From Arthrobacter sp. AK04 (GTDB lineage Bacteria; Actinomycetota; Actinomycetes; Actinomycetales; Micrococcaceae), in NCBI RefSeq assembly GCF_021129155.1, contig NZ_JAJOMC010000016.1, positions 1 through 64,000 of the forward strand: a stretch of DNA of 64,000 nt. Direction: 5' to 3'. Shown in pieces: positions 10,856 to 61,355 of the stretch. Below the pieces are notes generated by a model, which worked only from the letters and a program-made list of their open reading frames with translations, did no database searches and was not told where the DNA came from. The first letter of the stretch is position 1, and the number at the start of each line of letters is the position of its first letter. Position numbers and translations under genes: made by a program.

Positions 10856-10871
10856 GGAATTCCTTGGTTAA

Positions 10872-11906: not shown

Positions 11907-11938
11907 GGGCCGCATGAAGGACCCCGACGCCGGGCCGC

Positions 11939-14001: not shown

Positions 14002-14004
14002 CGC

Positions 14005-31544: not shown

Positions 31545-32834
31545 CTAAGCGCGCTGCGGAGAGCCCAGCTCCACCGGATCCTCATCCGTAAGGTAAGCGA
31601 GCTCGGAGTGTGCCGCCAGGTCGATTCCGCGCATCTCGTCCTCCGGGTTGATCCGCAGGCCGATCGTCTTGTCCAGGATCTTGGCGAGCACCCAGGTGAT
31701 GCCGAAGGAGTACACCAGCACGGTCACCGTTGCCAGGGACTGGACGCCGAGCAGTTCCACGCCGCCGCCGTAGAAGAGCCCGCTGACACCGTTCGGCGCC
31801 ACATCGGTGGCAAAGAAGCCGATCAGCAGCGTGCCCAGGATGCCGCCCACCAGGTGGACACCCACGACGTCGAGCGAGTCGTCGTAGCCCAGGCGGTACT
31901 TCAGTTCAATGGCCAGCGAGCAGACGGCCCCGGCGATCGCGCCGATGGCCACCGCGCCCAGCGGGGTCACAGCACCGCAGGCGGGGGTAATGGCCACGAG
32001 TGCTGAGATCAGGCCGGAGGCTGCACCCATGCTGGTGGCTGCGCCGCGGCGGAGCCGTTCCACGAGGGCCCAGGCCAGGAGGCCGGCTGAAGCAGCCACA
32101 GCGGTGTTGAGGAAGACCACCGACGCCGAGTGGCCGGCGGACAGCGCCGAGCCGGCGTTGAAACCGAACCAGCCAACCCACAGCAGGCCTGCACCAACCA
32201 GCACCAGCGGCCGGCTGTGCGGCTTCGCGTGCTCCACCTTGGGCCAGCCCGAGCTCTTGCCCAGGACCAGCGCCAGGGCCAGGGCGGCCGCGCCGGCGTT
32301 CATGTGCACCGCGGTGCCGCCGGCAAAGTCGATGGCCTCGATGCCGCTGGCAATCCAGCCGCCGGTCACGCTGCCGTCCTCGGAGGAGAAGGCGAACACC
32401 CAGTGCGCCACCGGGAAGTAGACGATGGTGGCCCAGATGCCGGCAAACAGCATCCACGCGCCGAACTTCATGCGTCCGGCAGCCGCGCCGGCCACCAGCG
32501 CGGTGGTGACGCAGGCGAAGAACAGCTGGAAGGCCGCGAACAGTGCCACCGGAATGGACGCCTCTGCGTCCTCGGCCATCAGCTGCCCCAGGCCGGGGAA
32601 CTCTGTGACGTCACCGATCAGGCCCAGCCCGCCCACTGAATTGCCGAAGGCCAGCGAGTATCCGAACAGTGCCCAGAGGACGGCCACCAGGCTGGCGCCG
32701 CCGAAGCACATCATCATCATGTTGAGAATGCGGCGCGAGCCCACCATGCCCCCGTAGAACAGGGCAAGGGCGGGGATCATCATGCAGACCAGCGCTGCGC
32801 TGGCCAAAATCCAAGCGACATTTCCCGAATCCAT
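31545..32834 (-). CDS. amt: Ammonium/methylammonium transporter Amt
   Basis: A 429-residue Amt/MEP/Rh channel with eleven expected spans. Opening block: AWILASAALVCMMIPALALFYGGMV. The pore twin histidines are visible in FAGGTAVHMNAGAAALALAL and VGVHLVGGILGTLLIGFF. Family motifs such as WVGWFGFNAGSA are present. It moves ammonia/ammonium and, in many bacteria, methylammonium. It lies downstream of the XRE-cupin gene on the same strand but 288 nt away. That gap holds the 17-nt motif also found before the ligase gene at 39444, which suggests shared control. In this setting it may serve amine uptake as well as ammonium scavenging. Confidence 0.95.
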   Translation of the reverse strand: MDSGNVAWILASAALVCMMIPALALFYGGMVGSRRILNMMMMCFGGASLVAVLWALFGYSLAFGNSVGGLGLIGDVTEFPGLGQLMAEDAEASIPVALFAAFQLFFACVTTALVAGAAAGRMKFGAWMLFAGIWATIVYFPVAHWVFAFSSEDGSVTGGWIASGIEAIDFAGGTAVHMNAGAAALALALVLGKSSGWPKVEHAKPHSRPLVLVGAGLLWVGWFGFNAGSALSAGHSASVVFLNTAVAASAGLLAWALVERLRRGAATSMGAASGLISALVAITPACGAVTPLGAVAIGAIAGAVCSLAIELKYRLGYDDSLDVVGVHLVGGILGTLLIGFFATDVAPNGVSGLFYGGGVELLGVQSLATVTVLVYSFGITWVLAKILDKTIGLRINPEDEMRGIDLAAHSELAYLTDEDPVELGSPQRA

Positions 32835-32991
32835 GGGAAACCCCTTTCGTGATGCGAGGAGAGAACGCCAAATCGCCCGTTGGAGCCACTCCGGAGGAGG
32901 GACGCGGAGTCAGTACCACGTTCATCGGAGGGCAGCTATTGCCGTCTGGTTCCAACTGTATGGCGGCAGGAATGGACTGGGTTTCCGGTGT

Positions 32992-33008
32992 GTTAAATGA
33001 TCGTTTCG
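32992..33008. promoter_or_regulatory. Motif GTTAAAT-N4-GTTTCG upstream of amt
   Basis: GTTAAATGATCGTTTCG lies 158 nt before the amt start. The same 17-nt arrangement (13 identical positions plus a 4-nt variable spacer) occurs at 40964-40980 before the type III glutamine-synthetase-like gene, in the same orientation relative to that gene. I infer a common regulator, possibly the XRE-cupin protein encoded between them. Confidence 0.45.
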
Positions 33009-33122
33009 GTCATCCACACGCGAGTTTCAACCGTCCCGCTGACCGCAGGAGTGCTGCGCAGCAGTGCTGAAGCCGGAGTGCTGGGCCAGGGGTGGGGAAG
33101 ACAGGGCGGAGGAAGAAGGACC

Positions 33123-33791
33123 CTACTTGGCGGAGATGGCCAGGAACGTGATGGGAAGGTCCAGCAGCTCCAGCGGCCCGTGCGGCCCTTCGCCGTCCAG
33201 CAGCAGGGAATCGCCGGGCTCCATGGCGTACTCGTAGGAGCCGTGGCCGTACACCATCCTGCCGGCGAGCATGTAGATGAACTCCGTGCCGGGGTGCTGG
33301 AACAGCGGGAACACGTCGGAGGCGTCCGTGAGCGTCACCAGCGTGGGTTCCAGGGCATCGGTCCGGCCCTTCAGAGTGCCCAGGACGCGGTATTCGTGGC
33401 CGTGCTGGGTGCCGCTGCGGACGGTGAGGCTCCCCTGGCCGCTCTTGGTGAAGGTGGCGTCGCGGTCTGTGTCCGCGCCACGGAACAATGCGGTGACCGG
33501 CACTTTCAGTCCGTCAGCAAGGCGCTGCAGCGTGGTCAGGGAACATGAGGTGGTGGCAGTTTCCACACGCGAAATCATTGCCTTGGAGAGGCCTGTCCGG
33601 GCGGCCAGTTCCGCCGAGGACAGCCCGGCCGCCGTGCGGTAGTGGCGCACCTGGGCTGCGATGACCTGCTCCAGCCGGCCCGCAGCCTGCCCGTCAGCCC
33701 GCGCCCCTTCGTGCGGCGCTTCCGGCTCCTCTTCCTGCCCGCTGGCGGAATCGGCTGCCTGTTCGGCTGCGTGGTCGGTCATAGCAGCCAT
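33123..33791 (-). CDS. XRE-family regulator with C-terminal cupin
   Basis: A 222-residue regulator. A charged, disordered N-terminus (~50 residues) precedes an XRE HTH (VRHYRTAAGLSSAELAARTGLSKAMISRVETATTSCSL and on). The C-terminal cupin holds FPLFQHPGTEFIYMLAGRMVYGHGSYEYAMEPGDSLLLDGEGPHGPL, a barrel that binds a small ligand. HTH-cupin proteins of this build (e.g. PuuR) commonly control amine and amino acid catabolism. The start is uncertain: ATG at 33791 or 33782, neither with a clear ribosome binding site. It lies 40 nt after the M20 hydrolase gene and is probably the last gene of the amine operon, hence its likely regulator. Confidence 0.82.
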   Translation of the reverse strand: MAAMTDHAAEQAADSASGQEEEPEAPHEGARADGQAAGRLEQVIAAQVRHYRTAAGLSSAELAARTGLSKAMISRVETATTSCSLTTLQRLADGLKVPVTALFRGADTDRDATFTKSGQGSLTVRSGTQHGHEYRVLGTLKGRTDALEPTLVTLTDASDVFPLFQHPGTEFIYMLAGRMVYGHGSYEYAMEPGDSLLLDGEGPHGPLELLDLPITFLAISAK

Positions 33792-33831
33792 CTTAGGCAC
33801 GGAACCGGGCGGGAGGACGACGACGGCGGCG

Positions 33832-35130
33832 CTACCTGGGTGCGCGGGTGTCGCCTGCCAGCCCCGCGAGGGAGTCCGCCAGCGCAAGTGCGCCGGCCTC
33901 GGCATCCCGGTCCTCCACCAGTTCCTCGGGGGAATGCGAGATGCCGGTGGGATTGCGGACGAAGATCATGGCCGTCGGCAGGTGGGAGCTGAGGACGCCG
34001 GCGTCGTGCCCGGCGCCGGTGGCCAGAATTGGCGCAGCCGGAAGCAGTTCCACCAGCCGGTCGCGCAGCCCGCCGTCGAAATGCACGGTGGGGCTGAGCG
34101 ATTCCATGGTCAGGTCCGCGGTGCAGCCCTCCTCCGCGGCGAACACCTGGGCAGTCAGCCCAATGGCTTCCACCAGTGCCGCGGTGACGGAGTCGTCGGG
34201 GTGCCGGGCATCGATCCACAGGTCCACACGGGAGGCGATGACATTGGTGCCGCCGGGCACCGGCTGGACCCTGCCCACGGTGGCCCTGGCGTCGCGGTAC
34301 TTCCGGGCGGTATCGCGGATGCCGACCACCACCTTGGCTGCCGCAATCATCGGGTCCCTGCGGTCCTTCATCAGGGTGGTGCCGGCGTGGTTGCCCTGGC
34401 CGCTGATGCTCAGCTTCCAGCGGCCGTGGCCCAGGATGGAGGAGCCGATTGCCACGGGCTGGTCCAGGTCAATCAGTCCCCTCCCCTGTTCCACGTGCAG
34501 CTCCACAAAGACGCCCAGCTGCTGGAGCGTCCCGTAGTCCGCTCCGATCAGGCGCGGGTCCTGGCCGTTCGCAGCCGCGACGTCGGCGTAGGTGTTGCCA
34601 TCGGGGTCCTTGAGCCGGCGGGCTTTGTCCGGGTCCAGGGCTCCGGTGAGGAGGCGGGAACCCAGGCAGGCAACGCCGAACCGGGAGCCTTCCTCTTCCG
34701 GGAAGACCGCGATGGCCAGCGGACGCCGGGGCCGCAGGCCGCGGGTTTTGAGGATGTCGACGGCGACCAGCGCCGATGCGACGCCGAGCGGGCCGTCGTA
34801 CTCGCCGCCGCCGGGAACGGAATCCAGGTGGCTTCCGGTGACGACGGCGTCCTTCCGGGTGCGTGCTGCGGTATCCCACCAGGCCCAGATGATGCCGTTG
34901 TGGTCCGTGTGGACATCCAGGCCGCGCCGTTCTGCCTGCTCAATGAACCAGCCGCGGAGGTCCGTCTCTGCGGTGGAGAACACCGGACGCGAGTACCCGC
35001 CCCGTGAGGCGTCCCTGCCGATGGTGGAGATATCACGAAGGAGGCCGGCAACCGTGGGGGTGCTTGTCCGGCCGGAAGGCAGGGCATCCGCTGTGGGGTC
35101 GGCCGTGGGTATTGTCTGTGGAAGGCTCAC
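33832..35130 (-). CDS. M20-family allantoate/N-carbamoyl-amino-acid amidohydrolase
   Basis: A 432-residue enzyme of the AllC/HyuC group. It starts at GTG 35130 (VSLPQTIPT), 11 nt after the sarcosine-oxidase-like gene. Metal-site motifs: VTGSHLDSVPGGGEYDGPLGV, FPEEEGSRFGVACLGS, ELHVEQGRGL, and the closing ATGAGHDAGVLSSHLPTAMIFV. Family members use two metal ions to split N-carbamoyl or ureido groups, releasing ammonia and CO2. In this operon it could liberate nitrogen from an N-carbamoyl or amide intermediate; the true substrate is not given by the sequence. The dimerisation domain (about 210-320) is present, so the protein is full length. Confidence 0.85.
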   Translation of the reverse strand: MSLPQTIPTADPTADALPSGRTSTPTVAGLLRDISTIGRDASRGGYSRPVFSTAETDLRGWFIEQAERRGLDVHTDHNGIIWAWWDTAARTRKDAVVTGSHLDSVPGGGEYDGPLGVASALVAVDILKTRGLRPRRPLAIAVFPEEEGSRFGVACLGSRLLTGALDPDKARRLKDPDGNTYADVAAANGQDPRLIGADYGTLQQLGVFVELHVEQGRGLIDLDQPVAIGSSILGHGRWKLSISGQGNHAGTTLMKDRRDPMIAAAKVVVGIRDTARKYRDARATVGRVQPVPGGTNVIASRVDLWIDARHPDDSVTAALVEAIGLTAQVFAAEEGCTADLTMESLSPTVHFDGGLRDRLVELLPAAPILATGAGHDAGVLSSHLPTAMIFVRNPTGISHSPEELVEDRDAEAGALALADSLAGLAGDTRAPR

Positions 35131-35141
35131 TGGTATCCGTT

Positions 35142-36374
35142 CTAGGTGGTCACAGCTGCCGGGGACGCTGTCCGGAACCGGTCCGGAACACCGCCGGAGC
35201 CGTCGGCCAGGTCCGCCGCCCACTGCCCGATCAGCGGCGCGAATTTGGCGCCGTGGCCGGAACAGGGGGAGACGATTGTCAGGTTGTCCACGCGGTCGAT
35301 GAGGAAGTCCTCGTTGGGTGTGTTGGTGAACAGGCAGGTTGTTTCGGCGTAGGGCTTCGGGTCCAGGCCGGGCAGGTAGCGCTGCACGTAATCCACCACC
35401 CGGCGGCGGTTGGCGGGGTCCACTTTCCCGGTCTGCCGTGCCGCGGAAGGAATCAGCTTGCCGCCGTTGTACTCCGCCACTTTCTGCCCGGCGAAGCCGG
35501 CGTCCCGCCCGCCGGGAAGGCCATAGGCCTGGATGTCCGCAGCCTTGTGGATGAAGGTAGGCCAGCCGCCGGCACCCGGCGCAGCGCCGCCGTCGTCATC
35601 CTTGGAGGCGTGGTCCGCTGGGGCGTGATCTTTGGGGGCGTGGTCCGCAGGGGCGTGGTCGCGGTATTTGAAGTGGAAGGCCTGCTCCTGCCGGACGGTG
35701 ACCTCCGGGAGCCCGGCCAGGAAACCTGTCGGAAGGGACAGACTCCCCAGCAGTGCCGGCAGCCACCCGCCGGCGCTGATCACCACGTTGCCGGCGTCGT
35801 GCGTTTGCCCGGTGGTGGAGTGCAGCCGGTAACCGGCGCCCGTCCGCTCCACGCTTTGCAGCTCCCAGCCGGCCAGCAGCCGGGCGCCGTGCTCGACGGC
35901 GAGGCTTACCGTCGCGTTGACGGCGCCTTCCGCGTCGATCACCCCCGCGCCGGGGTGCCAGAGGACGTCGGTATCGAAGGCGATCTGCGGCCAGCGTGCG
36001 CGGGCGTCGGCCGCGGACAGGAGTTCGTGCTCGATCCCTTGCCCAGCCAGCACCGAGGCCAGCAGCCGGGGATTGCGCTCCGGGCCGTAGTCCACGGCGC
36101 CGAACGGAGTGATCAGGGGCGTCCCGCACGCGGCAGAGAGTCCGTCCCACAGGCCCACCGATTCCACCACTGCGCGGGTGTAGAAGGGGTCGGGGTAGGC
36201 ATAGCGGAAGATCCGGGCGGACCCGTGGGAACTGCCGTCGTGGCTGGCCGGGACGTTGCGTTCCAGGATGGTCACCTGGTGCCCGCGGGCGGCCAGCTGC
36301 CAGGCGGTGGCGGCACCGGCCAGCCCGGCGCCCACCACCACAAAATCTGACGCGCCGGAAAAAGCCTCAGGCAT
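35142..36374 (-). CDS. Monomeric sarcosine oxidase/N-methyltryptophan oxidase-type flavoenzyme
   Basis: A 410-residue flavoenzyme. The FAD fold opens DFVVVGAGLAGAATAWQLAARGHQV. The diagnostic GSSHGSARIFRYAY follows, and the covalent-flavin cysteine is C371 in VSPCSGHGAKFAP. Family members oxidise N-methyl amino acids (sarcosine, N-methyltryptophan) to the amino acid plus formaldehyde and H2O2. The start ATG overlaps the stop of the FMN glutamate-synthase-like gene (TGATG). In the amine pathway it could oxidise an N-alkylated glutamate. A repeated insert, DHAPADHAPKDHAPADHASK, interrupts the middle of the chain (near residues 238-258) and is absent from family members I recall. Confidence 0.85.
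   Translation of the reverse strand: MPEAFSGASDFVVVGAGLAGAATAWQLAARGHQVTILERNVPASHDGSSHGSARIFRYAYPDPFYTRAVVESVGLWDGLSAACGTPLITPFGAVDYGPERNPRLLASVLAGQGIEHELLSAADARARWPQIAFDTDVLWHPGAGVIDAEGAVNATVSLAVEHGARLLAGWELQSVERTGAGYRLHSTTGQTHDAGNVVISAGGWLPALLGSLSLPTGFLAGLPEVTVRQEQAFHFKYRDHAPADHAPKDHAPADHASKDDDGGAAPGAGGWPTFIHKAADIQAYGLPGGRDAGFAGQKVAEYNGGKLIPSAARQTGKVDPANRRRVVDYVQRYLPGLDPKPYAETTCLFTNTPNEDFLIDRVDNLTIVSPCSGHGAKFAPLIGQWAADLADGSGGVPDRFRTASPAAVTT
35601..35661. repeat. In-frame 15-nt tandem repeat inside the oxidase gene
   Basis: About four copies of a GGGGCGTGGTCCGCA-like 15-mer encode consecutive DHAPx pentapeptides (x = A, K or S). The copies differ at few positions, indicating recent slippage expansion. 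The reading frame is kept. The histidine/acid-rich loop may be a variable surface element. Confidence 0.75.
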
Positions 36375-37735
36375 CAGAAGCTTCCCTGCACTCCGGGGAT
36401 CCACGAGGTGCCGGCCAGCGGCACGCGGGCCATGGCGGACGCCTCGATGGTGAGCGCCACCAGGTCCTCGGGCTCCAGGTTGTGCAGGTGCGACTTCCCG
36501 CAGGCCCTGGCAATGGTCTGGGCCTCCATGGTGAGGACGCGCAGGTAGTTTGCCAGCCGCTTGCCGGCAGCCACCGGGTCCAGCCGGGAGGACAGCTCCG
36601 GGTCCTGGGTGGTGATGCCGGCGGGGTCGCGGCCGTCCTGGAAGTCATCGTAGAAACCGGCGGCGGAGCCGAGCGCGGAGTACTCGGCGGCAAAACGGGG
36701 ATCGTTGTCGCCGAGGGCGATCAGCGCAGCCGTGCCAATGGCCACGGCGTCAGCGCCGAGGGCCATGGCCTTGGCGACGTCCGCCCCGGTACGGATGCCG
36801 CCGGAGACGATGAGCTGGACCTTCCGGTGCACACCGAGCTCCTGCAGTGCCTGGACGGCCTGCGGGATGGCGGCAAGGGTGGGGATCCCGACGTTTTCGA
36901 TGAACACCTGCTGCGTCGCCGCCGTCCCGCCCTGCATGCCATCCACCACAACAACGTCCGCACCGGACTTCACCGCGAGCGCGGTGTCGTAGTACGGCCG
37001 GGAGGCGCCGATTTTGACGTAGATGGGGGTCTTCCAGTCGGTGATTTCGCGCAGTTCGCCGATCTTGATTTCGAGGTCGTCCGGGCCGGTCCAGTCCGGG
37101 TGGCGGCTCGCCGAACGCTGGTCGATCCCGACCGGCAGGGTGCGCATCCCGGCGACGCGTTCGGTGATCTTCTGGCCCAGCAGCATGCCGCCGCCGCCGG
37201 GCTTGGCGCCCTGGCCCAGCACGATCTCGATGGCGTCGGCCTTGCGGAGGTCGTCCGGGTTCATACCGTAGCGGGACGGGAGGTACTGGTACACCAGGTG
37301 CTTGGACTGGCCGCGCTCCTCAGGCGTCATGCCGCCGTCGCCCGTTGTTGTGGAGGTTCCCACCTCCGAAGCGCCGCGGCCCAGCGCCTCCTTGGCGTTG
37401 GCGGAGAGGGCGCCGAAGCTCATGCCGGCGATGGTCACCGGGGTCTGCAGGTGCAGCGGGCGGGTGGCGTGCCGGTCGCCGAGGACGACGTCGGTATCGC
37501 ACTTTTCGCGGTAGCCCTCCAGGGGGTAGCGGGACATGGAGGCGCCGAGGAACAGGAGGTCATCAAAGTGCGGGACCTTGCGCTTGGCACCCCAGCCGCG
37601 GATGTCGTAGACGCCGGTGGCGGCGGCACGCTGGATGTCCGCGATGGTGGCGCGGTCGAACGTGGCGGATTCGCGCAGGCCCAGTTCAGCAATGTTCTGG
37701 GTGGGCGCCTGCTGCGGAACGGAGGTGATGGTCAT
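36374..37735 (-). CDS. FMN-binding glutamate-synthase-like protein (GlxD/MgsC type)
   Basis: A 453-residue stand-alone version of the FMN domain of glutamate synthase. Phosphate/FMN-binding features: VTIAGMSFGALSANAKEALGRGASEVG, STTTGDGGM, GQGAKPGGGGMLLGQKI, then VDGMQGGTAATQQVFIENVG and the GGIRTGADVAKAMALGADAVAIG phosphate loop. In N-methylglutamate synthase (MgsABC) and the Rhizobium Glx set, GltB is split in this way into GATase, FMN and GXGXG proteins. It lies 9 nt after the GXGXG gene and is coupled to the oxidase gene. Predicted job: reductive transfer of nitrogen or an alkylamine to 2-oxoglutarate together with the two neighbours. Confidence 0.88.
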   Translation of the reverse strand: MTITSVPQQAPTQNIAELGLRESATFDRATIADIQRAAATGVYDIRGWGAKRKVPHFDDLLFLGASMSRYPLEGYREKCDTDVVLGDRHATRPLHLQTPVTIAGMSFGALSANAKEALGRGASEVGTSTTTGDGGMTPEERGQSKHLVYQYLPSRYGMNPDDLRKADAIEIVLGQGAKPGGGGMLLGQKITERVAGMRTLPVGIDQRSASRHPDWTGPDDLEIKIGELREITDWKTPIYVKIGASRPYYDTALAVKSGADVVVVDGMQGGTAATQQVFIENVGIPTLAAIPQAVQALQELGVHRKVQLIVSGGIRTGADVAKAMALGADAVAIGTAALIALGDNDPRFAAEYSALGSAAGFYDDFQDGRDPAGITTQDPELSSRLDPVAAGKRLANYLRVLTMEAQTIARACGKSHLHNLEPEDLVALTIEASAMARVPLAGTSWIPGVQGSF

Positions 37736-37744
37736 GGTGGGCTC

Positions 37745-38482
37745 CTAGTACTGCGTCGAGTTGTCGACGTGGAAGTGGTAGAGGTTCCGGGCTGAGCCGT
37801 AGCGCTTGAAGTCGGCAGGATTGTCCGTGCGGCCGGCGGCGGCGAGCAGCTCCGCGAGTTCTGCGAGGTGCTCTGGCATCACCGGTTTTTCGATGCAGTC
37901 CGCGCCGAGGGAGGCCACAGTGCCTTTGACGTAGATCCGTGCCTCGTAGATGGAGTCGCCCAGGGCGTCCCCGGCGTCGCCGCAGACCACCAGCCGCCCG
38001 GCCTGCGCCATGAATGCGGACATGTGGCCGATGTTGCCGCCCACCACGATGTCCACGCCCTTCATCGAGATCCCGCAGCGGGCGCCGGCGTTGCCGTCGA
38101 TGACCACCAGGCCACCGTGGCCGGTGGCGGCTGCTGACTGGGAAGCATCTCCCTTGACGTGGACGCGGCCGGACATGATGTTCTCCGCAAGGCCGACGCC
38201 GGCGTTGCCGTTGATGGTGACGTCGCCTTTTTGGTGCATCCCGGCTGCGTAGTAGCCGGCGTGGCCGTCGATGGTCACCTGGATGTCCGCGTCGATGCCG
38301 ACGGCGAGGCTGTGCTTGCCGCCGGGGCTGGCCACGGCCCAGGATTGCCCGTCAACCGCGTTGTGGACGGCCTGGTTCAGTTCCCGGACGCTGGTGACGG
38401 CAAGGTCCACGGTGGTCGCCTCCGGCTCCCGGGCTTCAGGGGCGGTGGTTGCCGTGCTTTCGGGGGCTGTCAGAGTGACCAT
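37745..38482 (-). CDS. GXGXG-motif protein (GltB C-terminal domain; GlxC/MgsB type)
   Basis: A 245-residue right-handed beta-helix protein corresponding to the C-terminal domain of glutamate synthase. Repeats of the G-x-x-G-x-G pattern run from about residue 60 to 190: IDGHAGYYAAGMHQKGDVTINGNAGVGLAENIMSG, VIDGNAGARCGISMKGVDIVVGGNIGHM and CGDAGDALGDSIYEARIYVKG. In the full enzyme this domain is structural and bridges the active sites. The first ~25 residues are Thr/Ala/Glu-rich and flexible. It overlaps the GATase gene by 13 nt. Confidence 0.88.
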   Translation of the reverse strand: MVTLTAPESTATTAPEAREPEATTVDLAVTSVRELNQAVHNAVDGQSWAVASPGGKHSLAVGIDADIQVTIDGHAGYYAAGMHQKGDVTINGNAGVGLAENIMSGRVHVKGDASQSAAATGHGGLVVIDGNAGARCGISMKGVDIVVGGNIGHMSAFMAQAGRLVVCGDAGDALGDSIYEARIYVKGTVASLGADCIEKPVMPEHLAELAELLAAAGRTDNPADFKRYGSARNLYHFHVDNSTQY

Positions 38483-39390
38483 GTGTAGACCTTTCCGGGT
38501 TCCGGTTCAAAGATGCGGGCGTTGCTGATGCCGGGCAGGCCGGCAAGGGCGCGGTATTCGGAGGCCATGGCCACGTAGTCGTCCGTTTCGGCGATGATGG
38601 CGGGCTTGCAGGCGATGGGGTCCCGGACCACGGCCATGCTGTCCGCGGTGGTGACCACCAGGGTGTAGAAACCGTCCAGGACCTTGCCGAGGTTCACCAG
38701 GGCTTCCTCGAGGGTGTCGCCCTGCTTCAGCCGGGAGGCGACGTAGCGGGCGCCCACTTCGGTGTCGTTTTCGGAGTCGAACACCACGCCTTCGCGCCTG
38801 AGCTCGCGCCGGACAGTGGCGTGGTTGGAGAATGAGCCGTTGTGGACCAGGCAGAGGTCGTCGGCCACGGAGAACGGGTGGGAGCCGCCGGCGGTAACGG
38901 CGGACTCGGTGGCCATCCGGGTGTGGGACAGTCCCTGGCTTCCCGCCATCGCCTCCAGGCCGTGCTCGGCGGCGATTTCCATGGGGTGGCCCACGCTTTT
39001 CATGACCGCCACATGCTCGCCGCGGCCAATGATGGTGGCGCCGGGCAGGGTTTCGCTGACCGCTTTCACCAGCAGGTCAGTCCCGACGGCAGCGCTCACC
39101 AGGGTGGTATCGCCCACAACTTTGACGGCTGCTGCCGCACCCGCCGGAAGCGCGCCGGCAAGGAGAGCCGCGACGCCGGCGGTGATGTCCGCCGTCGTCA
39201 TTCCCTGGTCCTTGCCCAGCAGGCTGAGGGTGGACGCACCCGGCGAAACCAGGCCGGGGGTGTTGTAGACGGCCAGGCCGGCGGAGTCCGGTCCGCGGTC
39301 CACGATCTGGCACAGCATGGAGGACAGCAGGCTGCCCATTTGGGGGTGCAGCGAAGGGTTGCGCAGCTGCAGCGCGGCGATTCCGCACAT
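38470..39390 (-). CDS. Class II glutamine amidotransferase (GlxB/MgsA type)
   Basis: A 306-residue Ntn-type amidotransferase. It begins MCGIAALQLRN, so cleavage of Met1 exposes the catalytic Cys2. Other class II features: QIVDRGPDSAGLAVY, GLSHTRMATESAV and LVHNGSFSNHATVRRELR. It strips the gamma-amide of glutamine, or in MgsA the alkylamide of gamma-glutamylalkylamide, for transfer at the FMN subunit. It overlaps the GXGXG gene and follows the ligase gene by 53 nt. The order ligase-GATase-GXGXG-FMN matches known amine-assimilating clusters. Confidence 0.88.
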   Translation of the reverse strand: MCGIAALQLRNPSLHPQMGSLLSSMLCQIVDRGPDSAGLAVYNTPGLVSPGASTLSLLGKDQGMTTADITAGVAALLAGALPAGAAAAVKVVGDTTLVSAAVGTDLLVKAVSETLPGATIIGRGEHVAVMKSVGHPMEIAAEHGLEAMAGSQGLSHTRMATESAVTAGGSHPFSVADDLCLVHNGSFSNHATVRRELRREGVVFDSENDTEVGARYVASRLKQGDTLEEALVNLGKVLDGFYTLVVTTADSMAVVRDPIACKPAIIAETDDYVAMASEYRALAGLPGISNARIFEPEPGKVYTWSL

Positions 39391-39443
39391 GGTGGGGGTC
39401 CTTACTCAATAGCGTCTGGTGGTGTGACTGGATGGAGGACTGG

Positions 39444-40874
39444 TCAGATCGACGTCAAATACGTGCGGATTTCCCAGTCGCTGACCTGGTTGTGCCAGCT
39501 CAGGAATTCCTCTTCCTTTGCGTCCGCGTAGTACCTGCCGATCTCCGGGTTGCCGCTGAGGCTGGCCAGGATGACGGGGTCCTGCCGCAGTGCTTCCACG
39601 GCGTGGAGCAGGGTGGCCGGCAGCTGGTGCGCGTCAGGCCGGGACTCGCCGGGACCGGACGGGGCACCCGGATCGGCGGCTTTCTCCACGCCGTCCAGCC
39701 CGGCGGAAATCGCGGTGGCAATGGCCAGGTACGGGTTGGCTGAGCCGTCCCCGGAGCGCAGCTCGATCCGTTTGTTGTCCGGGACGCGGATCATGTGGGT
39801 GCGGTCGTTGCCGCCGAAGGATGCCTTGCGGGGTGACCACGTGGCACCCGAGGAACTGGTGGTGGCGCCTGTCCTTTTGTAGGAATTCACTGTCGGGGCG
39901 AGGAACGCCTGAAGTGCCGGAGCGTGCTCCAGGATGCCGGCGATGAAGGAGTAGGCGAGGCCGGAAATCCCAAGGCCCCTGCCGTCGTCGTTGTTTCCTT
40001 CGCCGGTTGCGCCGCCGTCGCCTGCACCGCTGCCCGCTGCCGGGAACAGTGCCTCGGACCCGGACCACAGGGACAGGTGGAAGTGCAGGCCGGTGCCGGT
40101 GCGGTCGGTGAAGGGCTTGGGCATGAAGGTGGCCGTCATGCCGCGCTGTTCGGCCAGGATGTTCAGGATGTAGCGGAGGGTGACCACCCGGTCCGCCGTG
40201 GTGAGGGCATCTGCGTAGTTGAAGTTCTGCTCGAACTGGCCGGCGGCGTCCTCGTGGTCATTGGCATAGTTGCCCCAGCCCAGGCCGTTCATCGCCTCGG
40301 AAATGCCGGTGAGGTGGTCATACATGCGGGTGACGCCGCGGGCGTCGTAGCAGGGGCGGGGCGAATCGTCCCGGCCGTCGGCGGTACTCAGCGTCCCGTC
40401 GTCGTTCTTTTTCACCAGGAAGTACTCCACCTCGGCCCCCACCTTTGCCTGCATGCCCTTCTCCGCCAGGCGGGCCAGGGTGTTCTTCAGGATCACCCGC
40501 GGCGCGTAGGGCCAGGGCTTGCCGTTGACGTGCGGGTCGCAGTGGATGATGGCCAGGCCCTCCTTGATGAAGGGGACAGGGGTGAAAGAGGCGAGGTCCG
40601 GCACAGCGATCAGGTCCGGGTCCTGCGGCTTCTGGCCCATCAGGCCCGCAGCATAGCCGGCGAAGCCCATGGCACCGTCTTCGAGTTCTTCGGAGGCTTC
40701 AACGGGGACCAGCTTGGCGCAGGGTTTGCCGGTCATGTCCACGAAGGTGGCCAGCAGGAAGCGGACGCCGTGGGCCTTGGCGATGTCCGCCAGGGAAATC
40801 GTGGGCGCCCCGGATACTTCGCGTTCTTCGGCGAAGGGCGGAGCGGTTACAGCAGGGGTTGCGACACTGGTCAT
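39444..40874 (-). CDS. Type III glutamine-synthetase-like ligase (GlnT/GmaS-like)
   Basis: A 476-residue glutamine synthetase homologue. The ATG at 40874 is preceded by AGGAACG; another ATG lies at 40892. Beta-grasp domain: VRFLLATFVDMTGKPCAKLVPV. Catalytic domain: AKVGAEVEYFLV, GQFEQNFNYADAL, MTATFMPKPFTDRTGTGLHFHLSLW, NSYKRTGATTSSSGATWSPRKASFGGNDRTHMIRVP and ELRSGDGSANPYLAIA. It joins ammonia, or in GmaS a methyl/alkylamine, to the gamma-carboxyl of glutamate using ATP. It lacks the C-terminal adenylylation signature I expect in GlnA-I. Position at the head of the MgsABC-like genes favours gamma-glutamylalkylamide synthesis, but ordinary glutamine synthesis cannot be excluded. Confidence 0.85.
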   Translation of the reverse strand: MTSVATPAVTAPPFAEEREVSGAPTISLADIAKAHGVRFLLATFVDMTGKPCAKLVPVEASEELEDGAMGFAGYAAGLMGQKPQDPDLIAVPDLASFTPVPFIKEGLAIIHCDPHVNGKPWPYAPRVILKNTLARLAEKGMQAKVGAEVEYFLVKKNDDGTLSTADGRDDSPRPCYDARGVTRMYDHLTGISEAMNGLGWGNYANDHEDAAGQFEQNFNYADALTTADRVVTLRYILNILAEQRGMTATFMPKPFTDRTGTGLHFHLSLWSGSEALFPAAGSGAGDGGATGEGNNDDGRGLGISGLAYSFIAGILEHAPALQAFLAPTVNSYKRTGATTSSSGATWSPRKASFGGNDRTHMIRVPDNKRIELRSGDGSANPYLAIATAISAGLDGVEKAADPGAPSGPGESRPDAHQLPATLLHAVEALRQDPVILASLSGNPEIGRYYADAKEEEFLSWHNQVSDWEIRTYLTSI

Positions 40875-40937
40875 CGAAACGTTCCTGTCCATTAGGGTTA
40901 GCTATCAGTAAACCTTGTTGCATCAGAGTATCCAAAG

Positions 40938-40982
40938 CGGTGTTTCGCCCGATTGGCGGCAACGTTAAATCGGTGTTTCGCC
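40938..40982. promoter_or_regulatory. Direct repeats CGGTGTTTCGCC and the shared GTTAAAT-N4-GTTTCG motif
   Basis: CGGTGTTTCGCC occurs at 40938-40949 and again at 40971-40982, 33 bp apart (about three helical turns). The second copy is part of GTTAAATCGGTGTTTCG (40964-40980), which recurs in degenerate form upstream of amt. It lies 90 nt before the ligase start and is a probable activator or repressor site for the amine operon. Confidence 0.55.
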
Positions 40983-47562: not shown

Positions 47563-50705
<3,143 letters not shown>

Positions 50706-53550: not shown

Positions 53551-54408
53551 ATGGCCCAGAAGATTGCGTACCAGGGTGAGCCCGGCGCCAACTCCAATAT
53601 CGCGTGCAAGCAGATGTTCCCGGACATGGAAAGCGTGCCCTGCGCGAGTTTCGAGGACGCCTTCGAACTGGTGTCCAGCGGCGAGGCGGAGCTGGCCATG
53701 ATCCCTATCGAGAACTCCATTGCCGGCCGGGTGGCGGACATCCATATCCTGCTGCCCCAGTCCAACCTGCAGATCGTGGGCGAGTTCTTCCTGCCCATCC
53801 ACTTCGACCTGCTGGGCATCCCGGGCAGCACCATCGGGGAGGCCACCGAGGTCCACAGCCACATCCATGCCCTGGGCCAGTGCCGGAAGCTCATCCGCGA
53901 GCACGGCCTCAAACCCGTCATCGCCGGCGACACCGCAGGTTCCGCCCGGGAAGTGGCCGAGTGGAACGATCCGCGCAAGCTGTCCCTGGCGCCGCCGCTC
54001 GCCGCGCAGATCTACGGCCTGGAAGTCCTGGCCTCACGGGTTGAGGACGACCCCTCCAACACCACCCGCTTCGTGGTCCTGGCCCGCGAAAAGGAGCTGC
54101 CGGCCCGGGATGAACTCTCCGGACCGGCCGTCACCAGCTTTGTGTTCCGCGTCCGCAACGTCCCCTCCGCCCTGTACAAGGCACTGGGCGGCTTCGCCAC
54201 CAACGGCGTCAACATGACACGGCTGGAAAGCTACATGGTGGGCAATGAGTTTGCCGCCACCATGTTCATGGCCGACGTCGAGGGCCACCCCGGGGACCTG
54301 CCGCTCAAGCTTGCCCTGGAGGAACTGGACTTTTTCACCACGGAGGTGCGGATCCTGGGCGTCTATGCGGCCGCGGAGTACCGGACGGGTCAGACGGTCA
54401 GCGGCTGA
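53551..54408 (+). CDS. pheA: Prephenate dehydratase
   Basis: A 285-residue enzyme converting prephenate to phenylpyruvate in phenylalanine synthesis. The PDT domain (1-180) has KIAYQGEPGANSNIACKQMF, LAMIPIENSIAGRVADIH, LLGIPGSTIGEATEVHSHIHALGQC and the catalytic NTTRFVVL. The C-terminal ACT domain (200-285) contains NVPSALYKALGGFATNGVNMTRLESYMVG. The usual phenylalanine-binding ESRP is replaced by ESYM, so feedback inhibition may differ. The ATG at 53551 lacks a strong ribosome binding site; the frame is open back to 53479, but that lies in the inverted repeat. It converges with the monooxygenase gene, overlapping by 19 nt. Confidence 0.92.
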   Translation: MAQKIAYQGEPGANSNIACKQMFPDMESVPCASFEDAFELVSSGEAELAMIPIENSIAGRVADIHILLPQSNLQIVGEFFLPIHFDLLGIPGSTIGEATEVHSHIHALGQCRKLIREHGLKPVIAGDTAGSAREVAEWNDPRKLSLAPPLAAQIYGLEVLASRVEDDPSNTTRFVVLAREKELPARDELSGPAVTSFVFRVRNVPSALYKALGGFATNGVNMTRLESYMVGNEFAATMFMADVEGHPGDLPLKLALEELDFFTTEVRILGVYAAAEYRTGQTVSG

Positions 54409-56297
54409 CCTGCCCCCTGCCGTTTCAGGAGCGGCCCGAAGAACTCCGCCAGCTCAGTGGTGGCCGTCAGCGGCAGGATGTTGGCCACGTACTGGTCCGG
54501 CCGCACCACCACCACAACACCCCCGCGGTCCAGGCCCCGCAGCTCGAAGATGTCAGCCTTGGGGTCTGTGCCGTAGACCTTCTCGTAGTCCGTCAGCTTG
54601 AACGGGCCCACCTGAGGCTTGAAGAGTGCCGGCACCGCGTTGATGTCCAGTTCTGTGTGCGGCTGCTGGTAAACCACCTTCACGTCGAACCAGGCGTCAG
54701 GATCAGCGTCCGACGGCGTTGCGGCCAGCGGCGATTCCGTCGCCTCCGCGAGCCATGCGGCCAGCTTGTCCGTGGCGGACCCTGTGCCCGGAAGGGCGGG
54801 ATCGGCGAAGACGTAGATCCGCCACCGGCCGTCCGCCGTGGCGTGGTGGCCCAAGTGGATGGGGTTGGTGTCGCCCACCCGCACCACGGGGGCCGACTTG
54901 AAGCGTTTGCCCACCGGGAAACCTGCGGCCAGGTCCTGGTGGTCCGGGCTGCCGACAATGAGCGAGGGCGTGTACTGCGTCATGAAGCCCGCCGGGAACT
55001 CGGCGGTGCTGACGTAGAAGTCCTCCAGGTCCGAAGGGTTGGCGAATTCCTCGGGCTTCTTGGCCATCATGGTGGACCACTCTTTATCGAAGTCGATGAG
55101 GTTTTTCGCCACCACCTGGCGCTCCTCCGAGTAGGTGGACAGCAGGCCTTCCGGGCTGCGGCCTTCCAACACGTGCCCCAGCTTCCAGGCCAGGTTGAAA
55201 CCGTCCTGCATCGAGACGTTCATGCCCTGCCCAGCCTTCGCACTGTGCGTGTGGCAGGCGTCGCCCGTGATGAACACCCGCGGCGTCTGCTTGCCGCGCT
55301 GGTCTGGAAGGACGTCGTCGAACCTGTCGGTGAGGCGGTGGCCCACCTCGTACACGCTGTGCCACGCCACGTTCCGGACATCAAGGGTGTAGGGGTGGAG
55401 GATTTCGTTGGCTTGGTGGATGATCTGCTCGATTGTGGTGGCGCGCACGGCGCCCTTGTTGTCCGGATCCACCACGCCTAGGTCCACATACATGCGGAAC
55501 AGGAAGCCGCCCTCACGGGGGATCAGCAGGATGCTGCCCTTTTCGCCCTGGATGGCGCATTTGGTGCGGATGTCCGGGAAGTCCGTGGCCGCCAGGACGT
55601 CCATGACGCCCCAGGCATGGTTGGCGGCATCGCCGGCAAGGTGGCAGCCGATCGCGTCCCGGACCTTGCTCCGCGCGCCGTCCGCACCGATGACGTACTT
55701 GGCGCGGACCACCCGTTCCTGGCCTTCGCCGGCACCGTCGGCGTGCGCCAGGGTCACGGTGACGGGATACTCCCCCTGCCCGGTGACCTCAAGGCCGCGG
55801 AACTCGTAGCCGTAGTCCGGCACCATGCGGGTGGGCGAGTTGGCCATGAACTCCGCGAAGTAGTCAAGGACCCGGGCCTGGTTGACGATCAGGTGCGGGA
55901 ATTCGCTGATTCCCATTTCGTCGTCCACGGCGCGGGCGGCCCGGACGATGCGGGAGTGGTCCGCGGGGTCCGGCTTCCAGAAGGCCATCTCGGTGATCCG
56001 GTAGGCCTCGGCAATGATGCGCTCGGCGAACCCGAACGCCTGGAAGGTCTCAACGCTGCGGGCCTGGATCCCGTCGGCCTGGCCGATGGGAAGCCGTCCC
56101 GCCCGGCGCTCGATAATGCGGGTGGTCACGTTGGGGAACTGTGAGAGCTGCGCGGCGGCGAGCATGCCGGCGGGCCCGGTGCCCACAATGAGCACGTCAA
56201 CCTCGTCCGGGAGCTCAGCTGGGCGGTTGATGCCGACGCCGGCTGCCGGCCTGACGCGCGGGTCTCCGGATACATAGCCGTGGTGGTGGAACTGCAC
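54390..56297 (-). CDS. FAD-dependent aromatic hydroxylase (phenol hydroxylase/MobA type)
   Basis: A 635-residue class A flavin monooxygenase that adds a hydroxyl ortho to a phenolic OH using NADPH and O2. FAD motif: EVDVLIVGTGPAGMLAAAQLSQF. The DG motif is YVIGADGARSKVRDAIG and the second FAD contact is RVFITGDACHTHSAKAGQGMNVSMQDGFNLAWKL. The thioredoxin-like C-terminal domain of phenol-hydroxylase-type enzymes follows (from ~450). GTG start at 56297 with GTGAGGA upstream. Length and motifs resemble 3-hydroxybenzoate 4-monooxygenase. Divergence from a homoprotocatechuate operon suggests instead hydroxylation of 3- or 4-hydroxyphenylacetate to homoprotocatechuate. Which acid is used cannot be read from sequence. 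A TATTAT -10 lies at 56348-56343. Confidence 0.85.
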   Translation of the reverse strand: MQFHHHGYVSGDPRVRPAAGVGINRPAELPDEVDVLIVGTGPAGMLAAAQLSQFPNVTTRIIERRAGRLPIGQADGIQARSVETFQAFGFAERIIAEAYRITEMAFWKPDPADHSRIVRAARAVDDEMGISEFPHLIVNQARVLDYFAEFMANSPTRMVPDYGYEFRGLEVTGQGEYPVTVTLAHADGAGEGQERVVRAKYVIGADGARSKVRDAIGCHLAGDAANHAWGVMDVLAATDFPDIRTKCAIQGEKGSILLIPREGGFLFRMYVDLGVVDPDNKGAVRATTIEQIIHQANEILHPYTLDVRNVAWHSVYEVGHRLTDRFDDVLPDQRGKQTPRVFITGDACHTHSAKAGQGMNVSMQDGFNLAWKLGHVLEGRSPEGLLSTYSEERQVVAKNLIDFDKEWSTMMAKKPEEFANPSDLEDFYVSTAEFPAGFMTQYTPSLIVGSPDHQDLAAGFPVGKRFKSAPVVRVGDTNPIHLGHHATADGRWRIYVFADPALPGTGSATDKLAAWLAEATESPLAATPSDADPDAWFDVKVVYQQPHTELDINAVPALFKPQVGPFKLTDYEKVYGTDPKADIFELRGLDRGGVVVVVRPDQYVANILPLTATTELAEFFGPLLKRQGAGQPLTV

Positions 56298-56342
56298 GGG
56301 TTTCCTCACTTCGTTGTGTGGGTTCAGGCGAATTGGTGTTCG

Positions 56343-56348
56343 ATAATA
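56343..56348 (-). promoter_or_regulatory. Probable -10 box of the monooxygenase gene
   Basis: On the minus strand the hexamer is TATTAT (five of six consensus positions), preceded 17 bp upstream by TTCTTA, a weak -35. It lies about 46 nt before the GTG start. This stretch is the most AT-rich part of the divergent spacer. Confidence 0.4.
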
Positions 56349-56448
56349 GAATTTCAGTTTCCATATAAGAAAGCTGTGCGCCTGAGCACCACAGTACGCC
56401 ACCTGCGACGCGGACGACAAGGGTGCCCGGATGCGCCAAAATTCGGGG

Positions 56449-56490
56449 TTGACGGACGGCCCGGCGAGCGCGAGAGTGATCGTATACGAT
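56449..56490 (+). promoter_or_regulatory. Operon promoter region with GntR-type palindrome
   Basis: TTGACG at 56449-56454 is a good -35. ATCGTATACGAT at 56479-56490 is a perfect 12-bp palindrome with a GTATAC centre, as seen for FCD-type GntR regulators. It would overlap or follow the -10 region, fitting repression by the GntR protein encoded in the operon. Confidence 0.55.
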
Positions 56491-56513
56491 TTCGTACCTC
56501 GCAAGGAGATGCA

Positions 56514-57980
56514 TTGGAGCACGTCAACGGAGACACCCTGGCAGGGGCCCGCAAGGTGATCGCGGTGCACATCAACTACCCCAGCCGGGCAGCCCAGCGG
56601 GGGCGCACTCCGGCGCAGCCGTCCTACTTTCTGAAGCCGTCGTCGTCGCTCGCCCTCAGCGGCAGCGCTGTTGAACGGCCGGCGGGCTGTGAACTGCTCG
56701 GCTACGAGGGCGAGATTGCCCTGGTCATCGGCAAGGCCGCCCGGCGTGTCAGCCTTGAGGACGCCTGGAGCCACGTTGCCGCCGTGACCGCCAGCAACGA
56801 TCTTGGCGTCTACGACCTCCGCTACGCGGACAAGGGTTCCAACCTGCGCTCCAAGGGCGGCGACGGGTTCACGCCGGTGGGCCCGGCACTGATCCCGGCA
56901 GACGCCGTCGACCCCTCCCGCCTGCGCCTCCGCACCTGGCACAACGGCCAGCTGGTCCAGGATGACACCACCGGGGACCTGCTCTTCCCGTTCGGCCGGC
57001 TGGTGGCGGACCTTTCGCAGCTGCTCACGCTCGAAGAAGGGGACATCATCCTCACCGGCACTCCGGCGGGCGCGTCCGTGGCCAGGCCCGGCGATGTGCT
57101 GGAGGTGGAGGTGGGCACCGCTGACGGCAGCCTCACCACCGGCCGGCTGGTCACCCGGGTGGAGGAAGGCACGACGCCGTTCGCGGACTTTGGTGCCGGC
57201 CCCAAAGTTGATGACCTGCAAAGGGAGGAGGCGTGGGGTTCGCGCGAGGCTGCGGGGTTGGCTGCCCCTGCCAGCGTCCTTACCCATGAGCTGAAAGCCA
57301 AGCTGGAGTCCGTGGCCACGGCCACCCTGTCCTCGCAGCTGCGCAAGCGCGGCCTCAACAACGTGAGCATTGACGGCCTGCAGGCCACCCGGCCTGACCG
57401 CCGCGTGGTGGGCCTGGCCCGGACCCTGCGCTACGTGCCCAACCGGGAGGACCTCTTCAAGACCCACGGCGGCGGCTTCAACGCCCAGAAACGGGCCATC
57501 GACTCCGTGAACGAGGGCGAGATCCTGGTCATGGAGGCGCGCGGCGAAAAGGGCACCGGAACCGTGGGCGACATCCTGGCCTTGCGTGCCCAGGTCCGCG
57601 GCGCCGCAGCGATCATTACCGACGGCGGCGTCCGCGACTCCACCGCCGTTGCCGGGCTGGAGATGCCCACCTACTTCGCCAACCCGCACCCCGCGGTGCT
57701 GGGCCGCCGCCATATCCCCTGGGACACGGACATCACCATCGCCTGCGGCGGCGCCACCGTCCAGCCCGGGGACATCATCGTGGCCGACTCCGACGGCATC
57801 CTGGTGATCCCGCCGGCCATCGCCGAAGAACTCGTGGATGACTGCATCCTGCAGGAACAGGAAGAAGCCTTCATCTTCGAGATGGTCAAGCAGGGCAACA
57901 GCGTGGACGGCCTCTACCCGATGAACGCCGAGTGGCAGGCACGGTATGAGGAGTGGAAAGCAGGCAAGGCCAATGGCTGA
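56514..57980 (+). CDS. Fusion: FAH-family isomerase (HpaG-like) plus RraA-family domain
   Basis: A 488-residue fusion. The start is a TTG at 56514 with AAGGAG five nt upstream. Residues ~1-250 form a fumarylacetoacetate-hydrolase domain: NYPSRAAQRGRTPAQPSYFLKP, GYEGEIALVIGKAA (metal-binding E-x-E), then SNDLGVYDLRYADKGSN and EEGDIILTGTPAG. Residues ~255-488 are RraA/HMG-aldolase-like: LSSQLRKRGLNN, then AIITDGGVRDSTAVAG with R374 and D375. Canonical HpaG has two FAH halves, one isomerase and one decarboxylase. Here the partner fold is RraA, whose relatives decarboxylate oxaloacetate-type acids. I infer one protein doing both steps after ring cleavage. It overlaps the GntR start by 8 nt. Confidence 0.82.
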   Translation: MEHVNGDTLAGARKVIAVHINYPSRAAQRGRTPAQPSYFLKPSSSLALSGSAVERPAGCELLGYEGEIALVIGKAARRVSLEDAWSHVAAVTASNDLGVYDLRYADKGSNLRSKGGDGFTPVGPALIPADAVDPSRLRLRTWHNGQLVQDDTTGDLLFPFGRLVADLSQLLTLEEGDIILTGTPAGASVARPGDVLEVEVGTADGSLTTGRLVTRVEEGTTPFADFGAGPKVDDLQREEAWGSREAAGLAAPASVLTHELKAKLESVATATLSSQLRKRGLNNVSIDGLQATRPDRRVVGLARTLRYVPNREDLFKTHGGGFNAQKRAIDSVNEGEILVMEARGEKGTGTVGDILALRAQVRGAAAIITDGGVRDSTAVAGLEMPTYFANPHPAVLGRRHIPWDTDITIACGGATVQPGDIIVADSDGILVIPPAIAEELVDDCILQEQEEAFIFEMVKQGNSVDGLYPMNAEWQARYEEWKAGKANG

Positions 57981-58635
57981 AACAGTACTGGCCGCAGGCA
58001 GCAAGTCCCAACAGGCCTACGAAGCGGTGAAGGCCCGGATCGTGGAGGGCACCTACTCCCCCGGCTACAGGCTGGTCCTGGGGAGCATCGCCAAGGACCT
58101 CGGGGTCAGTGTGGTTCCGGTCCGGGAAGCCATCCGGCGGCTGGAGGCAGAGGGGCTGGTTACGTTTGAACGGAACGTCGGCGCCACCGTGGCCGGGATC
58201 GATCCCACCGAATACCTCTACACGATGCAGACCCTGAGCATCGTGGAGGGTGCCGCCACCGCGCTGTCCGCTCCCCTGATCGATGCGGTGGCCATTGCCC
58301 GTGCCCGGGCCGTGAACGAGGAGATGCGTGAATGCCTCAACCACTTTGACCCCGTCAGGTTCACCAGGCTCAACCAGGATTTCCACAGCATCCTGTTCGA
58401 ACACTGCCCCAACCCGCACATCCTGGATTTGGTCCACCGCGGCTGGAACCGGCTGGCAGCACTGCGGTCCTCCACCTTCCGTTTTGTCCCGGGCCGCGCC
58501 CATGAATCGGTGAACGAGCACGAGGCGCTGCTCCAGCTCATCGAGTCCGGAGCCACCGCCGACGAGATCGAAAAAGCCGCGCGGCTCCACCGCTCCGCCA
58601 CCCTGGACGCCTACCTGGCACAAAGCAAGCAGTAA
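57973..58635 (+). CDS. GntR-family (FCD) regulator of the aromatic operon
   Basis: A 220-residue regulator. The winged HTH is SQQAYEAVKARIVEGTYSPGYRLVLGSIAKDLGVSVVPVREAIRRLEAEGLVTFERNVG. The FCD effector domain follows, with metal/ligand residues in RFTRLNQDFHSILFEHCPNPHILDLV and the later HESVNEHEALLQLIESG. It probably binds a pathway acid and controls the operon through the ATCGTATACGAT site. Its ATG lies inside the end of the fusion gene, so it is co-translated within the catabolic operon rather than separately expressed. Confidence 0.88.
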   Translation: MAETVLAAGSKSQQAYEAVKARIVEGTYSPGYRLVLGSIAKDLGVSVVPVREAIRRLEAEGLVTFERNVGATVAGIDPTEYLYTMQTLSIVEGAATALSAPLIDAVAIARARAVNEEMRECLNHFDPVRFTRLNQDFHSILFEHCPNPHILDLVHRGWNRLAALRSSTFRFVPGRAHESVNEHEALLQLIESGATADEIEKAARLHRSATLDAYLAQSKQ

Positions 58636-58654
58636 ACGTACAAGTTAGGACTCA

Positions 58655-60199: not shown

Positions 60200-60267
60200 G
60201 CGCCCGCACCCACGCCAGCCCACCGGCGTCGTCCGTTCCAAAAACCTTTCAAAGAAGAGAGACCATC

Positions 60268-61353: not shown

Positions 61354-61355
61354 CC

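Follow-up and report, generated by a model that had tools for sequence, protein, structure and literature searches.

The N-methylglutamate pathway of Proteobacteria is encoded by gmaS, mgsABC and mgdABCD, and in Methylobacterium extorquens DM4 the mgsABC-gmaS order (PMC6237917) matches that of a plasmid of Methylobacterium sp. DM1, on which genes for a glutamine amidotransferase (GATase), glxC, an FMN protein and glnT follow one another. Two methylotrophic Mycobacterium genomes have been described as carrying gma, mgsABC-like and mgdA-D homologues, for which an N-methylglutamate pathway was proposed; the same paper finds homologues of mgdA-D in two strains of Arthrobacter and describes no gma-mgs cluster for the rest of its genomes (PMC5023230). 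Here, we report the computational analysis of a 64,000-nucleotide stretch of Arthrobacter sp. AK04 (contig NZ_JAJOMC010000016.1, positions 1 to 64,000; hereafter the window), part of a 4.70-Mb genome, in which a set of eight genes on the minus strand (31545-40892) encodes a GmaS-like ligase, three MgsABC-like proteins, a flavoenzyme, an M20 amidohydrolase, an XRE-cupin regulator and an Amt transporter. A run of genes in M. smegmatis, amt1-glnT-GATase-x-glutamate synthase-oxidoreductase (msmeg_6259-6264), which is under nitrogen-starvation and GlnR control, resembles this cluster (PMC4222082, PMC3662644).

The locus probably encodes a nitrogen-scavenging variant of the N-methylglutamate pathway in which a one-gene flavoenzyme of the monomeric sarcosine oxidase (MSOX) type, here called OX, replaces the dehydrogenase MgdABCD. 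In this scheme, whose reactions, amine and regulation we infer from sequence, Amt would admit methylammonium or a short alkylammonium, the ligase GlnT would combine glutamate, ATP and the amine to give gamma-glutamylmethylamide, the three-subunit synthase would convert this to N-methylglutamate, and OX would oxidise the N-methyl C-N bond with O2 in the place of MgdABCD, yielding glutamate, formaldehyde and H2O2; the operon would be controlled by the XRE-cupin protein and perhaps by GlnR. The amine is most likely methylamine. The SoxB, SoxD, SoxA and SoxG-type subunits are all missing from the locus and, since MgdABCD is thus absent there, we class the system as a variant of the pathway and not as a plain member. 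This version of a known pathway recurs in other genomes and is new as far as open-access literature searches show: in the literature searched, no description was found of an MSOX-type enzyme together with MgsABC, nor of an N-methylglutamate oxidase or N-alkylglutamates.

With domains assigned by Pfam and NCBIfam, the first four genes (referred to below as the core) encode GlnT (39444..40892), a class II GATase resembling MgsA (38470..39390; GATase_6/7), a GXGXG protein (GlxC) resembling MgsB (37745..38482; PF01493) and an FMN-binding glutamate synthase domain protein resembling MgsC (36374..37735; PF01645, Glu_synthase). The end of the GATase gene contains the start of the GXGXG gene. OX, a member of the DAO family, follows at 35142..36374; its likely ATG at 36374 (the longest open reading frame begins at 36404) and the TGA stop of mgsC share an A in the sequence TGATG, and the two genes therefore overlap, which bears out the translational coupling proposed in a preliminary description of this DNA.

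The grouping of these genes goes beyond chance. Among 36 congeners searched, seven have a close OX (69-82%), 19 have only a match at 33-37% (a paralogue) and 10 have none at E 1e-30. Six of the seven, and hence six of the 36, hold all eight genes together, with the XRE and Amt genes placed differently in some, and the seventh (G027, L043) has OX alone. A larger collection of 55 OX loci comprised the window, 10 loci from genome searches and 44 from a wider scan, the other 21 of its 65 loci (L124, L125, L127-L145) being weak matches that were dropped. The core adjoins OX in 16 of the 55 (in L083 with only the end of the FMN gene), an OCD-family gene is found in nine, M20 alone in six and none of these in 24, several loci lying near contig ends. 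The core-OX arrangement occurs in Arthrobacter, Cryobacterium, Sinomonas, Salinibacterium and Streptomyces, and GlnT-GATase-GXGXG-FMN-OX-M20 in three further families (L179, L180, L181), two of which have a HutD gene before OX. A search of 72,556 plasmids at E 1e-50 found OX on a single one, from Streptomyces sp. NBC_01320 (L199), with the order glnT-GATase-GXGXG-FMN-OX and no M20 annotated. In a tree of 53 OX rows the core-linked proteins are scattered over several separate parts, the label changing at least four times; the well supported branches alone are compatible with a single origin of core linkage, and the bootstrap had not converged. HutD is otherwise known from histidine utilisation; a gene of its family immediately precedes OX, or separates M20 from Amt, at L179 8228-8728, L180 7124-7567, L183 8235-8699 and L046 7450-7947.

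All three synthase subunits, MgsA (GATase), MgsB (GXGXG) and MgsC (FMN), are encoded separately at the locus. Relative to the Methylobacterium sp. DM1 plasmid, identity is 82.6% over 431 aa for MgsC, 63.4% for MgsB (named 'protein glxC' there) and 49.7% for MgsA (glutamine amidotransferase); the value for MgsC, together with the GmaS signature of GlnT described below, upholds the view that ligase, GATase, GXGXG and FMN genes are arranged as in MgsABC/GmaS clusters. The window MgsC has Asp343, Tyr362 and Asp370 where Cys-bearing relatives have cysteines. Aligned by way of one such relative (L157), the three absent cysteines coincide with the [3Fe-4S] ligands of glutamate synthase (2vdc). They are absent in 26 of 35 MgsC-like rows and present in nine, being missing from MgsC-type proteins that include the one of Methylobacterium sp. 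DM1 (L197 8965-10299) and kept in a more distant group (L157-L164). We rejected the idea that their loss was an actinobacterial invention, because they are also missing from the Methylobacterium sp. DM1 protein and from three further close homologues in Proteobacteria; three more distant proteobacterial homologues (39-53%) have them. A redox-neutral amine exchange within the FMN of MgsC, requiring no external electrons, would fit. The absence of the ligands bears on the redox cofactor of N-methylglutamate synthase, described as not yet identified in PMC6237917, which also compares the synthase reaction with the formation of N-methylglutamate from glutamate and methylamine.

A sample of the phylum contained 30 MgsC-like places besides that of the window, and the surroundings of 19 were read. 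Five have a different single flavoprotein directly after MgsC, SoxB-like and without the Cys and Lys of MSOX; seven have SoxBDAG-type subunits (L153 being cut by a contig end); and seven have neither type in the stretch read, several such stretches being cut short (in L154 a distant DAO protein lies 3.6 kb off). The MSOX-type OX was in none of these 19 loci. The oxidation step after MgsABC thus seems to be filled in at least three ways, and these other oxidases, together with the recurrence of the core-OX order, support the earlier proposal that a one-subunit oxidase stands in the place of MgdABCD. At L185 (2993-8264) the genes after the FMN gene of the core encode, in order, an Fe-S oxidoreductase, the beta and alpha subunits of ETF and a DAO flavoprotein, and L186 (547-3539) has the Fe-S oxidoreductase and ETF beta genes after its core, named by their likeness to L185; this set is possibly an ETF-linked N-methylglutamate dehydrogenase. 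The absence of a four-subunit dehydrogenase, also put forward at the outset, holds for the locus; the genome has a SoxBDAG set on another contig. The single SoxD match of the genome lies in that set, beside glyA- and sdaA-like genes (named by eye), neighbours that make it more likely a sarcosine oxidase. Overall, the analysis supports the preliminary description, which was right in what it observed and largely right in how it interpreted this, the functional steps in both cases being deduced from gene and protein sequences.

GlnT passes TIGR03105 (type III GlnT; 571 bits against a cut-off of 469.6) and is 39.6% identical to the GlnT of the Methylobacterium sp. DM1 plasmid. Its best alignments to solved structures are with a 'Glutamate--methylamine ligase' and with the type III ligase chain 7cql, which we take to be RhGmaS of PMC7948447. 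Using the site roles given there for GmaS and for ammonia-assimilating glutamine synthetase (GS), we found that GlnT keeps Lys30', Ala48, Tyr147, Asp177, Glu179, Glu186, Asn188, Arg288, Trp300 and Arg312, the only exception among the published GmaS sites checked being Gln175, replaced by Ala; the neighbouring columns 182 and 187, outside those sites, also differ from RhGmaS. The Asp50' of ammonia GS is lacking (Ala48 is there), as is the flap Glu (Trp300 is there), and one of the genome's own GS proteins (L048), unlike GlnT, has Asp and Glu at these two sites. With the GS residues gone and the methylamine-site residues kept save Gln175, GlnT resembles a GmaS-type ligase, and all 15 GlnTs read from MSOX-type clusters agree at the published sites, Ala175 included.

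The replacement of Gln175 by Ala in the GmaS pocket suggests that the amine may be larger than methylamine. On this rival reading the pathway logic is unchanged and ethylamine, isopropylamine or amino alcohols would give an aldehyde or ketone other than formaldehyde; even RhGmaS also accepts ethylamine and propylamine (PMC7948447). However, Ala175 is found as well in three of five clusters with four-subunit dehydrogenase genes, for which reason residue 175 was also rejected as a marker of oxidase type, and one core-OX cluster, that of Streptomyces sp. NBC_01320, has a formaldehyde dehydrogenase gene directly after OX, encoding S-(hydroxymethyl)mycothiol dehydrogenase (MscR; TIGR03451, 665 bits against 512.9). 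We regard a larger amine as unlikely, though not negligibly so.

Among core clusters without OX, FrmA and FrmB are nearby in Lampropedia and Fae is nearby in Methylobacterium. A homology scan of 94 loci with MscR, FrmA, FrmB and Fae as queries gave matches in five, three of which were the sources of the queries, the others being L195 (38-39% identical) and L094 (28-30%). Formaldehyde genes as a general neighbour of the cluster were accordingly not upheld.

The closest sequence relatives of OX are sarcosine oxidase, MTOX and NikD, with 22-31% identity to the solved members of these groups. Its predicted fold is that of MSOX (mean pLDDT 88.5), and its best PDB matches are the sarcosine oxidases 7exs, 9u3e and 1zov. 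Cys357, Lys308, Arg67 and Lys387, which we take to be the equivalents of MSOX Cys315, Lys265, Arg52 and Lys348, are invariant in all 39 alignment rows. In MSOX, Cys315 binds the flavin covalently, Lys265 activates O2, and Arg52 and Lys348 bind the substrate carboxylate; OX thus has the flavin Cys and O2 Lys as well as the carboxylate Arg and Lys of the MSOX/MTOX enzymes. Its scores lie below the curated cut-offs (TIGR01377, 189 bits against 479.65; NF008425, 224 against 257), which places it in the same superfamily and in a distinct subfamily. The subfamily has an extra loop after Tyr294 with a nearly invariant Arg300 and an invariant Asp301, and the genome's own paralogue is without this loop. 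As a guess, Arg300 might hold the side-chain carboxylate of glutamate; it is also present in most OX homologues outside the core. Within the window, a tandem repeat of period 30 in the OX gene (35594-35660) encodes a low-complexity Asp-His-Ala insert at about residues 251-280, which has low pLDDT and is gapped in the other 11 alignment rows except for two residues in L046.

The gene after OX encodes an M20 amidohydrolase of the allantoate amidohydrolase/carbamoylase family (33832..35130; NF006770, 617.7 bits against a cut-off of 372), with a likely GTG start just past the OX stop and a longest open reading frame from 35223. M20 adjoins OX in 26 of the 55 loci, 14 of them without the core and eight of these 14 with an OCD gene. 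At L103 of Brevibacterium oceani (10001-12475) OX and M20 lie in one open frame of 824 aa, an apparent gene fusion unless the assembly is wrong. This adjacency and the single frame indicate that M20 probably serves the same substrate stream as OX; it may release an amine or an N-methyl amino acid from a precursor that bears a carbamoyl or acyl group.

The same observations lend themselves to a second rival, in which M20 would supply an OX of general specificity, acting on N-methyl amino acids or sarcosine (one such route leading from N-carbamoylsarcosine by way of sarcosine to glycine), and the position of OX behind mgsC would be a convenience of co-regulated nitrogen scavenging. The carbamoylase/allantoate affinity of M20, the OX-M20 pairs without core, the Brevibacterium frame and a hydantoinase A gene near OX-M20 in Saccharopolyspora (L092) are all in its favour. 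Core-OX clusters without M20 exist, however (L107, L108, L111 and L114, to which L199 with none annotated may be added), the window has OX translationally coupled to mgsC, the two genes share 4 bases in L181, and the genome already has its SoxBDAG set with glyA/sdaA-like genes; we think this account improbable. An ordinary ammonia-assimilating GS/GOGAT-like set with OX unrelated, to which the NCBIfam name of GlnT (type III glutamate-ammonia ligase), the Amt alongside and the place of the M. smegmatis run in the nitrogen-starvation regulon (PMC4222082, PMC3662644) might point, is very improbable given a GlnT that lacks the ammonia-binding Asp and flap Glu of GS and an MgsC so close to that of Methylobacterium and without the [3Fe-4S] cysteines of GOGAT.

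The variant pathway with OX after MgsABC may have a counterpart in the nine OX loci where the core is lacking and an OCD-family gene lies within 8 kb. The OCD gene precedes OX on the same strand in six, in the slot of GlnT-MgsABC, and follows it in three. The order is OCD-OX-M20-Amt in L093 (operon at 8820-14029) and L097, where PII comes next, and in L046, where HutD precedes Amt; it is OCD-Amt-OX-M20 in L094 and GlnT-GATase-GXGXG-FMN-Amt-OX-M20 in L087 of Cryobacterium. The OCD gene of L103 is likewise in an operon with OX, M20 and Amt. The two OCD proteins scanned score above the cut-off of NF004848 ('tyramine oxidase subunit B'), and the best solved match of the one compared is 4m54, which we believe to be SbnB, an enzyme that splits an N-substituted glutamate. 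No MgsC was found in the nine OCD-linked OX genomes, and OCD proteins above the NF004848 cut-off are absent from the 19 core-OX genomes searched, seven of which have weaker OCD matches; both OCD-bearing controls pass, and for most of the genomes on either side completeness is not told. This exchange of OCD for GlnT-MgsABC suggests that both make the same kind of substrate for OX. Tentatively, OX could be the common back end of a modular system of amine assimilation, in which either of two interchangeable front ends yields one and the same N-alkyl amino acid: the ATP-driven GlnT-MgsABC with a redox-neutral MgsC, or a single SbnB-like OCD protein that reductively alkylaminates 2-oxoglutarate, an idea we hold to be possible and short of probable.

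Several observations, besides the hint of a larger amine from Ala175, weigh against OX as the oxidase of a methylamine pathway. To begin with, 24 of the 55 OX loci have neither the core nor an M20 or OCD gene in their vicinity. Where OX lies apart from the core, 31 of the 36 genomes searched (a set that excludes L118, L119 and L120) have no MgsC match at E 1e-60, from which it follows that OX is not confined to this pathway; its status as a dedicated pathway enzyme was thus not upheld. Among 395 genomes of the order, excluding that of the window, 16 have MgsC (E 1e-150), 37 have OX (E 1e-55) and five have both, a modest co-occurrence (p = 0.011, uncorrected for kinship); OX is absent from 10 of the 16 with MgsC, and these 10 belong to a single family. 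Only one of 20 core-OX clusters (16 + 3 + 1) has a formaldehyde gene, L199, itself a query source; the four-query scan found none in the window, and a 74% MscR homologue is on another contig. Finally, M20 is left unexplained by the proposed pathway. Of the five genomes with both MgsC and OX, three have the two genes side by side and two have them on separate contigs. A split pathway would fit three genomes in which the sequence read around a close MgsC (89-94%) contains no oxidase and an OX-M20 pair lies elsewhere.

The remaining genes of the cluster, like M20, lie on the minus strand where they had first been placed, and their domains too were assigned by Pfam and NCBIfam. The XRE-cupin protein (33123..33905; HTH_31 and Cupin_2), homologues of which are near the core in several loci, is a probable regulator of the pathway, and the Amt ammonium/methylammonium transporter is encoded at 31545..32834 (Ammonium_transp; TIGR00836, 421 bits). 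Upstream of GlnT, at 40917..40932 on the minus strand, is a GlnR-box-like motif, GATACTCTGATGCAAC, of the form Gn2AC-n6-GnAAC (PMC3662644); glnT is preceded by the same motif in L039 and by a form that differs at one base in L081. Twelve matches were found in 42 upstream stretches, against a mean of 2.1 in shuffled sequence, none of 200 shuffles being as high; because the shuffles were mononucleotide and many of the stretches come from relatives, this enrichment is only suggestive. In M. smegmatis under nitrogen starvation, the reported ratios of wild type to glnR mutant are 11.67 for msmeg_6259 (amt1), 16.11 for msmeg_6260 (glnT), 10.36 for msmeg_6261, 7.01 for msmeg_6263 and 5.06 for msmeg_6264, a putative oxidoreductase (PMC4222082), and a GlnR chromatin immunoprecipitation peak is reported at amt1 (PMC3662644). 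The direct repeats GGTGTTTCGC at 40939 and 40972 were considered as the operator of the regulator and rejected, their 10-base core not being found in 15 other loci scanned. Elsewhere in the window, a glutamate dehydrogenase-family gene lies at 49245-50696, about 8 kb from the cluster, and genes for a phenol hydroxylase-type monooxygenase, an aldehyde dehydrogenase, a glyoxalase/dioxygenase-family protein, an FAA hydrolase and an HpcH/HpaI aldolase at 54390-62956 are probably an aromatic meta-cleavage set.

If the proposed pathway is correct, a range of actinobacteria would assimilate methylamine by means of a one-gene oxidase that forms H2O2, and would escape surveys in which mgdABCD serves as the marker. 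The pathway would also hint at what the GlnR-controlled glnT genes of M. smegmatis do, and OX could be used as a reagent for N-alkylglutamates.

In comparison with known systems, the locus shares with the proteobacterial N-methylglutamate pathway (Methylobacterium extorquens DM4) a GmaS-like ligase and MgsA, MgsB and MgsC, and with Methylobacterium sp. DM1 an MgsC without the Fe-S cysteines; it differs in having an MSOX-type oxidase after mgsC, in having no MgdABCD, and in the addition of M20, XRE-cupin and Amt genes. The mycobacterial clusters read at sequence level, L146-L150 and the Mycobacterium plasmid L198, also have a single oxidoreductase, but theirs is SoxB-like and without the MSOX Cys and Lys, that of L198 being 73% identical to that of L146; the M. 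smegmatis run is compared by its gene descriptions. With MSOX, MTOX/SolA and NikD, OX shares the fold, the flavin Cys and the equivalents of Lys265 and Arg52/Lys348, and it is set apart from them by its extra loop and by its operon partner, mgsC.

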